NCBI GenBank assembly: GCA_022827345.1 | Contig: JAJDTB010000032.1 | Location: forward strand, 248,001 to 312,000 | Length of the DNA: 64,000 nt | Direction of reading: 5' to 3' | Source of the DNA: Gemmatimonadota bacterium | GTDB lineage: Bacteria > Gemmatimonadota > Gemmatimonadetes > Longimicrobiales > Gaopeijiaceae | Shown: positions 11,338-30,212 of the stretch, piece after piece | How positions within the stretch are numbered: position 1 is the stretch's first letter | Layout of the letters: every line of letters begins with the position of its first letter | Program-made: the position numbers and the translations under genes | Notes under the pieces: generated by a model | What the model saw: only the letters and a program-made list of their open reading frames with translations | What the model was told of the DNA's origin: nothing | The model's database searches: none

Positions 11338-12783
11338 ATGAGTCCGACAACCCGCTTCCTCGCCGTCGTCAAGGACGATTGCGAGACCTGCCACCTCGTC
11401 GCCCCCGTTCTCGGGCAGATCGCCCGCGAGGGCCACGACCTCACCGTCTGCTGGCAGGACGACGGCGGGTTCCTCGCTCCGTTTCTCGCGTCCGGCGTGA
11501 TCGATGACAGCCACCTGGAGCGGTCCTTCCGGCTGCGAATCGACACCGTTCCTACCCTCCTCCGCCTCGAGGACGACCGGGAGAGCGGCCGCATCGTCGG
11601 CTGGAACCGGCCCGAATGGCAATCGCTGACGGGGATGCCGGATCTGGGCGGCGGGCTGCCGGCGCATCGGCCCGGCTGCGGCTCCCGCTCCGTCGAGCCC
11701 GGGATCGCCGAAGTGCTGCGGGTGCGTTTCGGCGCATCCGGGATCCAGGCGCGCGCCATCCGGCTCGGTCCCGAAGCCGATCCCGTCGAAGCGTGCTACG
11801 ACCGCGGCTGGACAGACGGCCTCCCCGTGGTGCCCCCCACCCCCGAGCGAATCCTCCGCATGCTCGCCGGCACGCGCCGCGACCCGCGCGAGGTCGTCGG
11901 AGAGATCCCGCCGGAGTTGGCGCCCTGCACCGTCGAGAAGGTCGCCGTCAACGCGGTCATGGCCGGATGCAGGCCCGAGTACATGCCCGTGGTACTCGCC
12001 GCGCTGGAGGCCGCGCTGGACCCCGGCTTCACCCTGCACGGCGTCACCTGCAGCACCTGCTTCTCGAGCCCCGTCATCATCGTCAACGGGCCCGTGGCCA
12101 GGCGCATCGGAATGAACTCGGGGCTCAACGCGCTCGGGCAGGGCAACCGGGCCAACGCCACCATCGGCCGCGCGGTCAACCTCGTGGTGCGCAACGTCGG
12201 CGGCGGGCGCCCCGGCGAGATCGACCGCGCGACGCTGGGGTCGCCGGGCAAGTACACCTTCTGCTTCGCCGAGGACGAGAGCGACCCCGGCTGGGAGCCG
12301 CTCTCGACATCGCGCGGGGTGCCGGCCGGCCGCAGCGCGGTCACGGTGTTCGCGGGCGACGGGGTCCAGGGCGTCACCGACCAGAAGGCCCGCACCCCCG
12401 GCGAGCTCACGCGGTCGCTGGCGATGAGCCTGCAGGCCGTGGGGCACCCCAAGCTGTGCGAGTGGGCGCCAGCCGTTCTGGTTCTCTCGCCCGAGCACTA
12501 CGCGACCTACCGCGAGGCGGCGTGGGACCGGCGGCGGATCACTACCGCGCTGCACCGTGAACTTACGCGCAACGGAACCGAGGTCCGGGCGGGCGCGGGC
12601 GGCGTTGCCGAGGGGATGCCGTCCTCGCGCAGCCACGAGCGCATCGCCAAGTTCCACCCCGGCGCCCTGCTGCTCGTCCGCGCGGGCGGCCCCGCCGGCC
12701 TCTTTTCGGCCATCCTGTCGGGCTGGCCCGGAGGCCGGCTCTTCGAGGAATCGCACCCCGTCACCCGGGAGATCACCGAATGA
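11338..12783 (+). CDS. Thioredoxin-fold protein with large C-terminal domain of unknown function, partner of UGSC selenoprotein
   Basis: 481 residues, no signal peptide, probably cytoplasmic. Residues 1-90 look like a thioredoxin fold: FLAVVKDDCETCHLVAP carries a CxxC at 15-18, and IDTVPTLLRL carries the cis-proline-type segment. Residues about 150-470 form a separate domain I cannot name, with a second CxxC (CSTC, 238-241), VIIVNGPVARRIGMNSG and a Gly-rich NVGGG segment. GGAG 5-6 nt upstream supports the ATG. Its stop overlaps the ATG of the UGSC gene (ATGA, 12780-12783), so the two are probably co-translated. I infer a shared thiol/selenol redox or conjugation role; this is not demonstrated. 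Confidence 0.7.
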   Translation: MSPTTRFLAVVKDDCETCHLVAPVLGQIAREGHDLTVCWQDDGGFLAPFLASGVIDDSHLERSFRLRIDTVPTLLRLEDDRESGRIVGWNRPEWQSLTGMPDLGGGLPAHRPGCGSRSVEPGIAEVLRVRFGASGIQARAIRLGPEADPVEACYDRGWTDGLPVVPPTPERILRMLAGTRRDPREVVGEIPPELAPCTVEKVAVNAVMAGCRPEYMPVVLAALEAALDPGFTLHGVTCSTCFSSPVIIVNGPVARRIGMNSGLNALGQGNRANATIGRAVNLVVRNVGGGRPGEIDRATLGSPGKYTFCFAEDESDPGWEPLSTSRGVPAGRSAVTVFAGDGVQGVTDQKARTPGELTRSLAMSLQAVGHPKLCEWAPAVLVLSPEHYATYREAAWDRRRITTALHRELTRNGTEVRAGAGGVAEGMPSSRSHERIAKFHPGALLLVRAGGPAGLFSAILSGWPGGRLFEESHPVTREITE

Positions 12784-13346
12784 ACACGTCCGCAGTCACC
12801 CTGCACGACCCTACCTCCGAGGCCGCCCCGGCCAACCGCCCCCGCCGCCGCCCCCCGCCCTCCCTCGACGGCAGGACCGTCGCGCTCTTCGACATCGGCA
12901 AGTCGCGCGCCGGCGAGTTCCTCGACCACCTCGAGGCCCGCCTGCATGCCCGGGGCGTCACGACCGCGCGCTTCGCCAAGCCGACCAACGCCAAGCCCGC
13001 CACCGCCGCAATTCTGGGCGACATCGCCGCGGGCGCCGACATCGTCGTCGAGGCGCTCGCCGACTGAGGATCGTGCGTATCATGCGGTCTGCATGACATC
13101 AAGTCACTCGACGACCTTGGCCTTCCCGGCCTCCTCATCGCTACGACGGCCTTCCAGGAGGCGGCCGCCTTTCAGATCCCGTCGCTGGGCCTCGACCCCT
13201 TGATCGTGTGGGTGCCGCACCCCGTCCAGAATCGCACCCCCGAAGAGCTGGAGCGGATGGCCGACGACGCGCTCGATGCTGTCCTGGAGGGGCTGACTAC
13301 CCCGTCGTCGTCGCCACGATCAGGAACACCAGCACCACCACCGTGA
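12780..13346 (+). CDS. UGSC-family selenoprotein, in-frame TGA (13065-13067) read as selenocysteine
   Basis: 188 residues if TGA at codon 96 is decoded as Sec. Before it the frame reads VVEALAD, after it GSCVSCGLHDIK, LPGLLIATTAFQEAAAF and LDPLIVWVPHPVQNRTPEEL, good globular coding sequence that continues for 92 codons to a second TGA. Ala-Asp-Sec-Gly-Ser-Cys is the defining motif of the UGSC family found in selenoproteome surveys. A hairpin with a GGUCU loop follows 12 nt after the TGA. Stopping at the first TGA would cut the protein at its active motif and leave a 230-bp gap before the next gene. ATGA overlap with the upstream gene. The N-terminal 30 residues are Pro/Arg-rich and variable-looking. 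The last 50 bp overlap the convergent SLC13 gene. The reaction is unknown. selA/selB/selC/selD are not in the window. Confidence 0.85.
13065..13100 (+). promoter_or_regulatory. Bacterial SECIS element (UGA plus downstream hairpin)
   Basis: After UGA and 12 nt comes TCATGC-GGTCT-GCATGA (13080-13096): a perfect 6-bp stem with a 5-nt loop. The apical part TGC-GGTCT-GCA is almost the same as the SECIS apex of E. coli fdhF (TGC-AGGTCT-GCA), and the UGA-to-stem distance also matches (11 nt there). SelB recognises the GGUCU-type loop. An optional lower pairing GAU/AUC (13069-13071 with 13098-13100) can be drawn. Seen directly; the function is inferred from the match. Confidence 0.8.
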
Positions 13347-20286: not shown

Positions 20287-22680
20287 TCACGGAATCAGGT
20301 TCCGCCGCGCCGTGTTCCTCACGATGAACAGGCCGTCCCCGGTGCTCGTCATGACCACCACGCCGCTCTCGAAGTAGGGGTAGTTGCTCCACGAGGCGCC
20401 GCCGTAGGGCGAGTTGTCGAAGTAGGCGATCTCGACCGGATCGGTGCGGTTGGTGATGTCCAGGATCCTCAGCCCCGCGCCGTAGTTCGACTGGTACATC
20501 AGGTTGTCGCGGATGTAGAGGTTGTGGTCGGTGTCCGGGGTGCTGGCGATGTACTCGCCGGCCAGGATCGGCTCGTCGAGGTCCTCGACGTCCCAGATCA
20601 GGGTGCGGGTACCTTCGACCAGTCCCTGAGGCTCGTCTCCCTCGTCGTTCATGTAGAAGAAGCGGTGATCCTCGGTCAGCCACCCCTGATGGGCGTAGGC
20701 AACGGCCGGGTAGTCCTGGACCGCGACCGAGACGGGGTTGTCCTTGTCGGTCACGTCGCTGATGCTCAGCGCGGTCTCGTTGGAGCCGAGGCAGATCTCG
20801 CGGCCCTGGTAGTCCTCGTCGGGGCCGTGATAGTTCACGCACTGCGCGTCGTGGGAGTAGCCGGTGCCGCGGCGGCCGGACCGGTTGTCGAAGAAGCACC
20901 CCGCAAAGGTGGGTTCGGAGGGCTCGCTGAGGTCCAGCATGTGCAGTCCGCCGCCGCAGGTCTCGCCGCCGCCGCTGCTGCCCACCACGTATGCGAAGCC
21001 GGTCCCCTCGTTGATCACGATATTGTGGGCGCTGGCGATGCCGTCGTAGTAGAAGTCCGGCTCGAAGGTCTCCGGTTCGCCGTCGAAGTCGCGCAGGCGC
21101 CGCAGATCGAACACCTGCACGCCGTGCTGGTTCGCGCCGTCGGCCACGATGTAGGTGTGGTCCCGGTAGACTTTCATGTCGCGCCAGACGCTGCTGCGCG
21201 AACCCGGCGTCTTGGGAAGGTCGCCGAGCATGACGGGGTTGTAGGGGTCGGTGAGGTCGACGAAGGCGGTCCCGTCGGTGCGCCCCACGATCGCGATCTC
21301 GCGGCCGGTCTCGGGGTCGGTCCAGCCCCAGATGTCGTTGAGCCGGGAGCCGCGTCCGCCGGCCATCTCATTGATCGGCAGGAAGGAGATGATGTTGACG
21401 TTGTCGCACTCGTAGCCCGAAGCATCGCCTTCGACGCAGGGGATCTCGTCGTCCAGGCCCACGATGGCCGGGAGTCCGCGGTGGTCGCCGATCATGAGGT
21501 CGCCCGGCGTCCAGTCTCCCGCCGTGCCGCGCTCCGCGATCACCGCGCCGCCGGCCCGGCTGTCGATCCCGCCGGCCCCGACGACGGCCAGGTCACCCTC
21601 GACCGTCACCGAACTGCCGTAGGATGCGTTGTCGGCGAGGTCGTCGTTGGTCGAAATGGTCGCGCCGCTCCAACCCGACCCGGCGTCGTGCGCGAAGTGA
21701 TGGATCGCGCCCTTGCCGCCGTTCGCGCCCGGAGCGCCGACCCACACGTCGTCGCCGTCGAACCCCAGGGACGACCCGAACCGGTCGCGGCCCTGGGACC
21801 GGAACGGCCGCAGCACGCTGCCGGGTACCCACGCACCCGAGCCGTCCAGGGTGAAGGTCACGGCCGCACCGACCCCCTGCCCCGCGGCGGGCGCTCCGAC
21901 GAGCGCCAGCTGCCCCCGGACCGCGATCGTGCTCCCGAACCCGCTCCGCTCGCCGAGATCCACCGCGGCCTCGAGCCTGCCCCGCGGGCTCGGCCGGCCC
22001 GACATCGGGTCGAGCCGGAATGCGAACACCTCGATCGGCGCGTCGCGGCTCGGGGCCGTCGTCGCGAGCAGGGTCGATCCGTGGAGGGCGACCGATGTGC
22101 CGAAGCCGGGCATGGCGCCGTCGGGCGTCGCCTGCCCGCTCCCGGTCCACGCGTCACCGTCGGAAGCAAAGACGTAGACGGCCCCCGCCCCCTCGTTCTG
22201 TCCGGGAGCGGAGATCACGGCCACACCCTGCCCCAACGCCACGGCCGCGCCGAACGCGGCGTCCTCGTCGAGGCCTGCGGCGGACAGGCGCGCCACCTCG
22301 GTCCACGCGCCCGCCGCGTTCCTGCGATAGACCATTGCGGCGCCGCGGCCGCCGTCCCAGCCCGGAGCGCCGATGACGACCGTGCCGCCGTGGGCGTCGA
22401 GCGCGCGGCCGAACCCGTCGGGCGCGGCGGTCAGGGGGGACACGGTCAGCCTCCCCGCCTCTTCCCAGCCGCTTCCACCGCGGGCGTAGACGTAGACGAT
22501 GCCCGGCAGGGTCTGGTTGCCGGGCTCGCCGACGAGTACCTGGCCGTCCGCCACGGCCGAGGTGCCCCCGAACTGCTGGGCAGCGAGCCCGGGTGCGGCG
22601 GCGAGGATGAACATCAGGGCAAAGGCGGCCGGCAGGGCCGGCGGGCATGCGGGCAGGGCGTTTCGACGGAGGAACTTCAT
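20287..22680 (-). CDS. Exported choice-of-anchor B family protein with FG-GAP-like repeats
   Basis: 797 residues from ATG at 22680, preceded by AAAGGA about 10 nt upstream. Signal peptide about 1-35 (ending LAAQQ). Residues about 40-400 contain repeated FG-GAP-like units (GTVVIGAPGWDGGRGAAMVY, VAVISAPGQNEGAGAVYVF, DVWVGAPGANGGKGAIHHF). Residues about 440-790 match the choice-of-anchor B/LVIVD-type propeller: NDIWGWTDPETGREIAIVG, TAFVDLTDP, HGVQVFDL, SHDAQCVNYHGPD, LYIRDNLMYQSNYGAGLRI. Extracellular or surface, ligand unknown. The open frame continues upstream to 24207, but that part runs antisense to the PLP-enzyme codons and is Arg-rich shadow. Confidence 0.87.
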   Translation of the reverse strand: MKFLRRNALPACPPALPAAFALMFILAAAPGLAAQQFGGTSAVADGQVLVGEPGNQTLPGIVYVYARGGSGWEEAGRLTVSPLTAAPDGFGRALDAHGGTVVIGAPGWDGGRGAAMVYRRNAAGAWTEVARLSAAGLDEDAAFGAAVALGQGVAVISAPGQNEGAGAVYVFASDGDAWTGSGQATPDGAMPGFGTSVALHGSTLLATTAPSRDAPIEVFAFRLDPMSGRPSPRGRLEAAVDLGERSGFGSTIAVRGQLALVGAPAAGQGVGAAVTFTLDGSGAWVPGSVLRPFRSQGRDRFGSSLGFDGDDVWVGAPGANGGKGAIHHFAHDAGSGWSGATISTNDDLADNASYGSSVTVEGDLAVVGAGGIDSRAGGAVIAERGTAGDWTPGDLMIGDHRGLPAIVGLDDEIPCVEGDASGYECDNVNIISFLPINEMAGGRGSRLNDIWGWTDPETGREIAIVGRTDGTAFVDLTDPYNPVMLGDLPKTPGSRSSVWRDMKVYRDHTYIVADGANQHGVQVFDLRRLRDFDGEPETFEPDFYYDGIASAHNIVINEGTGFAYVVGSSGGGETCGGGLHMLDLSEPSEPTFAGCFFDNRSGRRGTGYSHDAQCVNYHGPDEDYQGREICLGSNETALSISDVTDKDNPVSVAVQDYPAVAYAHQGWLTEDHRFFYMNDEGDEPQGLVEGTRTLIWDVEDLDEPILAGEYIASTPDTDHNLYIRDNLMYQSNYGAGLRILDITNRTDPVEIAYFDNSPYGGASWSNYPYFESGVVVMTSTGDGLFIVRNTARRNLIP

Positions 22681-28803: not shown

Positions 28804-30212
28804 CCCTGCGTCGCCGCGGACGATCCGGGGACCAGGGAGAATTCGCCCGTGCTGTCGCCGAAGCTCTCCATCTCCATCCCCATCCCGTTGAGCGCCCACA
28901 GCATGGCATTGGCCATGGGCGTCGCGTCGGGGGCTGCGAGGTGCAGGTTGCCCTCCAGCAGGCCGTCTGCGCCGCCCAGCAGGACGAGCGGGCAGCGGCG
29001 GTGGTTGTGCAGGTTGGCGTCGGCCATCGGCGACCCCCACATGACCATGGTCTTGTCGAGGAGGCTGGCGTCGCCCTCCATGCTGCTTTGCAGCTTCTCG
29101 AGGAAATAGGGCAGCTGCCCAACCCGGAACTGGCAGATCTTGTTGAACTCGAGGATCGCTTCCTCCCGGCCGCCGTGGTGCGACGCCGGGTGGAAGGGGC
29201 GGTCCGAGCCGCTTTCGGGGAAGACGCGGTTGTCGGCGTCCCGGCCGGTCTTGAAGGAGATGATCCGCGTCATGTTGGTCTCGAAGGCGAGCACCTGCAG
29301 GTCGAACATGAGGCGCATGTGCTCGGTGTACGAGTCAGGCACGCCGGCGGGCGCTTCGGGCAGCTCGCGCTCCTCGCCGCTCGTGTTGCGCGATTCGACA
29401 GCCGCGATCCGGCGCTCGATCTCGCGCACGTTGTCGAGGTAACGGTCCATGCGCAGGCGGTCGGTGGCGCCCAGCTCACGCTTCAGCGCCGCGATCTCGC
29501 CGGCCATCCAGTCGAGGATGCTCCTGCGTGACGCCCGCCGCGCGGCCCGTTCCTCGGGCGTGCCACCGGCCCCGAAGAGCATGTCGAAGGCAACGCGCGG
29601 GTCGCGGATCATGGGCAGGGGCTCGTTGGGCGACGCCCAGCTGATCGTATCCGTGTAGGCGCAGGAGTAGTTGTAGGTGCAGCCCCCCGCCTGGTCGAGG
29701 TTCTCGATGCAGAACTGCATGGACGGCAGCGGCGTGTCCTGGCCGAAGCGCTGCGCATACATCTGGTCGAGCGAGGTGCCCACCCAGATGTCCGACCCCT
29801 GGGTCTGCTTGGGATGGGCCTGGGTGAGGAAGACCGCGCTGGAGCGGAAGTGGTCGCCGCCGATCTCGGGCGTGGTGAAGGCCTCGGCCTGGCGGCAGTC
29901 GGTATTGCTGACGATGGTCAGCCGGTCCTGGAAGGGCTGGAGCGGACTGAGCGCGCTCTCCGGCAGGATCTCGAAGTCCTTGCCCGTGGTTGCCGGCGCG
30001 TACAGGTGCTGCGTCGCGCCCCACTCGTTGCAGCCCGCCAGGCCGTGGACCTCCTCGATGCACACGAGGCGCGTCGGGCCCTCGTCGGGGCGGGTGTGAG
30101 CGCGCAACTGTCCAGCCGGGATCATGGCGTCGAGCAGCGGCAGCGCGGCCGTGGCGCCGAGGCCCCTGAGGAAGGTGCGGCGCGGAATGTGGGTACCGGT
30201 GATGAGGTGCAT
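28800..30212 (-). CDS. DUF1552 protein with Tat-type signal
   Basis: 470 residues. The start PRRTFLRGLGATAALPLL has the twin-arginine motif, so it is probably exported folded. The rest fits DUF1552, a family related to DUF1501/sulfatase-like folds, seen in Planctomycetota, Gemmatimonadota, Acidobacteriota and Myxococcota almost always next to a DUF1592-type protein. Here the two are 5 bp apart. Conserved pieces: SNTDCRQAEAF, GGDHFRSSAVFLT, SLDQMYAQRFG, PFHPASHHGG, LLDKTMVMWGSPMAD. No function has been established for the family. The stop overlaps the ankyrin gene start. Confidence 0.88.
   Translation of the reverse strand: MHLITGTHIPRRTFLRGLGATAALPLLDAMIPAGQLRAHTRPDEGPTRLVCIEEVHGLAGCNEWGATQHLYAPATTGKDFEILPESALSPLQPFQDRLTIVSNTDCRQAEAFTTPEIGGDHFRSSAVFLTQAHPKQTQGSDIWVGTSLDQMYAQRFGQDTPLPSMQFCIENLDQAGGCTYNYSCAYTDTISWASPNEPLPMIRDPRVAFDMLFGAGGTPEERAARRASRRSILDWMAGEIAALKRELGATDRLRMDRYLDNVREIERRIAAVESRNTSGEERELPEAPAGVPDSYTEHMRLMFDLQVLAFETNMTRIISFKTGRDADNRVFPESGSDRPFHPASHHGGREEAILEFNKICQFRVGQLPYFLEKLQSSMEGDASLLDKTMVMWGSPMADANLHNHRRCPLVLLGGADGLLEGNLHLAAPDATPMANAMLWALNGMGMEMESFGDSTGEFSLVPGSSAATQG

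Follow-up and report, generated by a model that had tools for sequence, protein, structure and literature searches.

The locus analysed here raises the question of whether a TGA that lies inside a coding frame of the window (the whole 64,000-nt stretch of DNA under analysis) is read as selenocysteine (Sec), and whether the hairpin that follows it is a bacterial SECIS element. We conclude that the hairpin at 13080–13096 is almost certainly the SECIS of a UGSC-family selenoprotein gene. As such it would be a true bacterial SECIS, of a kind already described and in an established selenoprotein family, and its support comes mainly from comparison among homologues, not from the stability of the hairpin itself.

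The UGSC-family gene and its in-frame TGA

The predicted selenoprotein gene lies on the plus strand at 12780–13346 and has 188 codons; the TGA at 13065–13067 (plus strand, codon 96) would be read as Sec, and the gene ends at an ordinary TGA stop at 13344–13346. Translated from the TGA at 13065, the frame gives U G S C V S C G L H D. The PF24696 (UGSC family) profile matches residues 8–173 at 117.2 bits (cut-off 25), a match that spans the TGA, and it also matches all 38 aligned members of our comparison. The window copy shares with the known UGSC family (PF24696, NF041046; available text of the GOS survey, PMC2398784) the UGSC motif, Sec encoded by TGA and a domain of the whole length of the protein. 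It differs from the known UGSC equivalog in that it scores 111.5–111.6 bits with NF041046 (Cys written for Sec), under the curated cut-off of 125. The window copy is 92% identical to the nearest aligned row and 36–48% identical to the farthest rows, and the predicted protein is a member of a divergent branch that occurs mainly in Gemmatimonadota. In its available text, the GOS survey counts 255 Sec and 21 Cys copies of the family (PMC2398784), and a 2026 review includes UGSC among its selenoprotein families (PMC13188914, available text). Our literature search on UGSC returned surveys that name the family, and in the available text of these surveys, PMC2398784 and PMC13188914 included, it is assigned no function.

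In a sample of 395 genomes of the phylum, we found UGSC genes in 49 genomes (51 matches), and every one of the 51 has one in-frame TGA. Cys homologues, which would have served as controls, were absent from these 51 matches in 49 of the 395 genomes; a plasmid search and a viral-contig search returned no UGSC match. In the genome from which the window comes (4.79 Mb), we found a tRNA-Sec with anticodon TCA (76.5 bits), SelB (320.9 bits, cut-off 242), SelA (508.4 bits, cut-off 268) and SelD (378.3 bits, cut-off 125), which itself has an in-frame TGA. The organism thus has predicted genes for making Sec. Across the phylum sample, SelA is present in 290 of the 395 genomes, namely in 47 of the 49 with UGSC as compared to 243 of the 346 others (Fisher one-sided p 1.9e-5, a value that ignores kinship). 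The two UGSC genomes in which SelA is undetected are G275 and G377, the latter just 73% complete. G275 carries two diverged UGSC genes (L047 and L071) on short contigs, which, with SelA undetected, suggests contamination or an incomplete assembly.

A plain ORF caller stops the gene at 13067, as it would if the TGA were an ordinary stop; alternatively, the TGA could have arisen by sequencing error or could encode an amino acid other than Sec, with the downstream frame kept for some other reason. Four observations argue against these readings: the Pfam domain continues through the TGA, the TGA is common to all 74 sequences compared, TGA also ends the upstream gene and the UGSC gene itself, and the genome has the complete Sec machinery. 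We regard this whole set of readings as extremely improbable. Under Sec decoding, ordinary annotation would truncate the gene at residue 95, and recognition of the SECIS recovers the full selenoprotein. TGA thus occurs in this gene pair as a stop, as a Sec codon and as a stop again (13344–13346).

The hairpin as a single sequence and its likeness to known SECIS elements

Downstream of the TGA, a 12-nt spacer (13068–13079) is followed by TCATGC (13080–13085), the loop GGTCT (13086–13090) and GCATGA (13091–13096). The apical hairpin (13080–13096, plus strand) therefore has a 6-bp stem, TCATGC with GCATGA, and the initial annotation had both its letters and its places right. The apical loop GGUCU (13086–13090, plus strand) has an invariant G-U at positions 23–24 from the UGA.

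Compared with the general bacterial SECIS model (PMC13188914, available text), the window hairpin is alike in loop, stem, position of the G, spacing and the N1-G-[G/U]-N-N2 pattern. The model, as given in the available text of that review, has an apical loop of 3–9 nt on an upper stem of 4–16 bp, a G in loop position 1 or 2 (usually as N1-G-[G/U]-N-N2), a distance of 16–37 nt from UGA to apical loop and a minimum free energy of –7.5 kcal/mol or lower (PMC13188914). Here the loop has 5 nt and the stem 6 bp, the distance from UGA to apical loop is 18 nt in all 38 aligned rows, and a G at loop position 2 is followed by a U in all 38; N1 and N2 are G and U in 30 rows and A and U in 8. As to energy, the apical hairpin alone has –6.4 to –7.0 kcal/mol, slightly weaker than the limit of –7.5; in a 36-nt context it reaches –7.7, and longer segments fold otherwise.

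The apex had been described as near-identical to that of the E. coli fdhF SECIS, a likeness that is borne out by the letters and by how far G23 and U24 lie from the UGA. The 42-nt fdhF stretch that we used is present in 5368 of 5426 E. coli genomes, and the five matches listed are all annotated as fdhF. By fdhF numbering the window reads G22 G23 U24 C25 U26 G27 C28 A29, and the letters GGUCUGCA are common to both; G23, U24 and the GCA lie equally far from the UGA, and the hairpin starts about 11–12 nt after it (numbering of PMC8659212, available text). In fdhF, according to the available text of the same paper, U17 is bulged, G23 and U24 are in the loop, and the SelB binding sites are U17 and G23 (PMC8659212). 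A G23 and a U24 in the loop, as in fdhF, are found in 38 of 38 rows. In contrast, the bulged U17 in the 5' strand of the fdhF upper stem, which E. coli SelB requires, has no counterpart in the window, and all 38 rows have a paired C at position 17. The loop is also one base shorter; the lack of A21 moves the 5' strand by one position, and the stem is otherwise different. The predicted element is not an fdhF-type SECIS; it resembles a SECIS and probably works like one.

Taken alone, the hairpin is weak evidence, and a single sequence would not establish a SECIS, because its folding energy is ordinary, comparable hairpins follow other TGA triplets of the window and the peptide itself favours the stem. 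With RNAfold, the segment 13065–13115 has –12.9 kcal/mol as compared to –13.04 ± 2.87 for shuffles (z 0.05). Counting both strands, the window has 1239 TGA triplets, of which 41 are followed by a comparable hairpin (a perfect stem of at least 6 bp, a G at loop base 1 or 2 and a spacing of 16–37), and 6 of these 41, the TGA at 13065 included, also have GGT near the loop start. Four of the six base pairs join codon positions 1–2 of S, C, H and D, which leaves Ser3-His3 and Cys3-Leu3 as the free pairs. For the peptide SC-x-LHD, with codons used as in six nearby ORFs, the chance of a full 6-bp Watson-Crick stem is 0.20, and with GGT it is 0.017. A scan of the whole window with Rfam at gathering scores gave no match. 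One covariance-model match elsewhere in the window (20416–20471, minus strand) has an E-value of 0.0046 in the window and 0.345 over the genome, and we attribute it to chance.

The functional fold might instead be a longer one that pairs UCGUGCG with UGCAUGA and AUC with GGU, for example to act as a switch, concealing the loop before a ribosome reaches it. This rival structure, in which the GGU is paired, is the best fold of the 51-nt segment 13065–13115 and also of 13068–13107, and in the window the middle pair of the SECIS has a probability of only 0.13 when the whole 45 nt after the UGA may fold. However, the longer structure is not general: in the full 45-nt fold, the SECIS middle pair exceeds 0.5 in 30 of 38 rows. 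The first nine or so nucleotides after a UGA would be inside the ribosome while it is decoded. The longer structure needs nucleotides that are likely to be there at that time, and the hairpin is the best fold of the window sequence once the first 9 nt after the UGA are omitted (middle-pair probability 1.0). We consider the longer fold very unlikely as the functional one. As to the apical hairpin, even in the shortened 36-nt context there are 7 of 38 rows in which the best fold differs from the full stem.

Stem, loop and codons among homologues

Two sources supplied the compared loci: a genome-contig scan, with 24 loci, and the phylum search, of which we used 50 of the 51 matches; a partial match in G327 (E 8.7e-4) was left out. 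A first motif pattern lost 2 of the 74 sequences, and a wider pattern captured all 74. These 74 sequences, the window included, gave 38 distinct gapless rows of 48 nt; some genomes are present twice under two names, which is absorbed by dropping identical rows.

At the same distance from the TGA, 97.8% of the 228 pair cells in the 38 rows hold standard pairs. The initial annotation proposed that synonymous changes in homologues be compared, and these changes leave the stem in place with compensation: two pairs are altered on both sides, in 16 cells. The inner pair Ser3-His3 is GC in 22 rows, AU in 15 and GU in 1; the closing pair is CG in 37 and GC in 1; three pairs are invariant, and the outermost pair is absent in 5 of 38 rows. 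No shuffle out of 500 attains the covariation score of 0.183, and sliding the register lowers the score in every case. On a tree of the 38 proteins built with the hairpin columns excluded, Ser3 changes three times and His3 four times, and the pair changes jointly four times, in three coordinated switches and one step to G-U. Covariation events are thus few (about three coordinated switches and one compensatory flip), and with this small number independent-pair tests cannot reach significance. The flip of the closing pair sits in a long-branch row, L038, in which the second Cys has become Trp (TGG) and Leu is CTC, not CTG, which restores the closing pair.

In the loop, the G-T at positions 23–24 is kept in 38 of 38 rows. 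The initial annotation proposed to see whether the GGUCU loop is kept; the full GGTCT is found in 30 of the 38, with AGTTT in 7 and AGTGT in 1. In the 8 rows in which the loop starts with A in the DNA, the residue is Ser and the codon AGT. Homologues with the same TGA and no stem-loop at this distance, which had been named as the observation that would speak against the hairpin, were absent from the 38 rows, all of which have it at the same distance. With a stem that covaries, an invariant GU and the TGA in 74 of 74 sequences, the predicted hairpin supports Sec decoding, as had been claimed.

The strongest line of evidence is synonymous constraint. The frame confirms that the stem lies within coding sequence (SCGLHD), where codons had been said to do double duty, and codons +4 to +10 show the tightest constraint for their amino acid. 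Because the 17 nt of the hairpin also encode S-C-G-L-H-D, the RNA would restrict the choice of codons. The third position of Gly+7 never changes (always GGT) as compared to 4–12 changes in seven other Gly columns; Leu+8 changes once, as compared to 5–12 times in twelve other Leu columns, and Asp+10 twice, as compared to 5–9 times in five other Asp columns. For Ser+5 we counted 3 changes (6 and 8 in other Ser columns), for His+9 4 (8 in the other His column) and for Thr+4 3 (4–16 in six other Thr columns). Closer to the TGA, Gly+1 (12 changes) and Ser+2 (8) are among the freest codons, and Cys codons are uninformative, being TGC nearly everywhere. If columns are exchangeable, the chance that all six are lowest is 1/(7 x 3 x 8 x 13 x 2 x 6), about 4e-5, a figure that is helped slightly by fewer rows at Gly+7 and Thr+4 and that applies to six codons picked as spanning the hairpin.

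These counts bear on whether the stem is a by-product of coding S-C-x-L-H-D, whose codons (TCN-TGC-NNN-YTG-CAY-GAY) pair with themselves, with Sec insertion using another feature. The coding of the peptide accounts for much of the stem, with four of six pairs fixed by codon positions 1–2 and a full-stem probability of 0.20, and the description of the hairpin as an independent signal therefore has to be narrowed to Ser3-His3, Cys3-Leu3 and the GGT/AGT codons. Coding does not account for GGT in all 26 rows with Gly in the tree set, although GGT makes up 8% of Gly codons in the ORFs of the window, nor for the co-occurrence of rare TCA (1.3%) with rare CAT (9%), nor for the Trp and the Leu CTC in L038 that restore the closing pair. 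A stem that merely follows from the peptide is, in our judgement, highly improbable. Comparison of sequences establishes the gene family, the presence of the Sec machinery, the conservation of the TGA and of a covarying stem, and the invariant GU, which together make up the case for the predicted SECIS.

We found a second hairpin of the lineage in SelD, a predicted selenoprotein with an in-frame TGA (L067; own genome contig C61, positions 28808–29728, minus strand). The SelD comparison covers 30 loci, of which L113 and L129 misfit the motif pattern and were left out of the counts. The loop of a 7-bp hairpin starts 33 nt after the SelD TGA; all 28 readable rows keep its GU, its stem pairs are standard in 27 or 28 of 28 rows, and one pair covaries. 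A hairpin closer to the TGA was at first taken as the SelD SECIS and was set aside, as its loop is not conserved across the 28 rows, whereas the distal one keeps its GU in 28 of 28. Two genes of the lineage, UGSC and SelD, thus have the core N1-G-U-N-N2 in common and differ in its spacing.

With the UGA at 13065 in the ribosomal A site, the SECIS would hold SelB with Sec-tRNA and GTP; its start, 12 nt downstream of the UGA, would lie at about the mouth of the mRNA channel, and Sec-tRNA would be placed on the UGA instead of termination. SelB most likely recognises, as the core, a perfect stem capped by the loop N1-G-U-N-N2 (here G-G-U-C-U). The switches between A-U and G-C codons, together with the invariant GU, would form a natural record of what SelB may read without the U17 bulge of E. 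coli.

The upstream partner and a possible role of the UGSC protein

The AlphaFold2 model of the UGSC protein is a confidently predicted alpha/beta domain (pLDDT 91.6), in which position 96 (Cys for Sec) lies between a strand (88–94) and a helix (97–112). Searches of solved structures by sequence gave chance-level matches only. With Foldseek and VIA-align, the model matches many Rossmann/flavodoxin-like alpha/beta folds, none of which stands out; the best match is 8s7v_H (Z 11.4, rmsd 3.9 over 138 residues). GrdB-family chains are absent from these match lists, which says nothing either way. By sequence, the GrdB model TIGR01917 matches 37 of 38 UGSC members weakly (best E 6.2e-5), and window residues 82–151, which hold the Sec, fall on positions 333–397 of its 431. 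The end of glycine reductase component B bears the Sec of GrdB, and the alignment points to a distant kinship of UGSC with this Sec-bearing end. The two differ in that the window protein reaches a partial 11.2 bits against a TIGR01917 cut-off of 602, and the rest of GrdB is missing from UGSC. The PF07355 profile has no match in the window's own genome; the five matches that it gave in 121 genomes are other short proteins with no stop inside the match, and we set them aside.

The upstream gene (11338–12783, plus strand) is predicted to encode an N-terminal thioredoxin fold with CxxC, followed by a C-terminal domain that no Pfam family matches. At 12780–12783, the TGA that ends the upstream gene shares bases with the ATG of the UGSC gene. 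Of 73 loci, 67 have the upstream gene in the same orientation, and in the other six just 237–594 bases precede the TGA; among the 67, the upstream stop reads ATGA, overlapping a start, in 54. The model of the upstream protein (pLDDT 79.3) matches thioredoxins over about 100 residues; a match to fumarate hydratase was of low quality (TM 0.23, rmsd 17.3) and was rejected. A Pfam search of the upstream protein up to E 10 gave one weak match and nothing more, and searches of solved structures by sequence gave no match.

Based on gene order and domains, the UGSC and upstream proteins may act together in thiol/selenol redox chemistry, and UGSC is probably a thioredoxin-linked redox enzyme distantly related to GrdB. 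A more specific proposal, which we find plausible and put forward tentatively, is that two genes encode one redox enzyme, of which UGSC is the selenium half: a GrdB-like Sec domain that stands alone, translationally coupled to a partner that joins a thioredoxin domain to the domain without a Pfam match. The mRNA would carry a compact SECIS class (N1-G-U-N-N2, no bulged U17) that the SelB of the lineage also reads in selD. The conserved thioredoxin-domain neighbour is a concrete lead to the role of the abundant, unexplained UGSC proteins.

Some loci come from bins assigned to other phyla. Four bins titled Gammaproteobacteria (L017, L019, L020 and L021) match the window's own family and are probably mislabelled. 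Three loci from betaproteobacterial bins (L035, L036 and L037) have a UGSC gene and its upstream partner at 56–57% identity with the loop AGUUU, and a transfer between phyla is possible.
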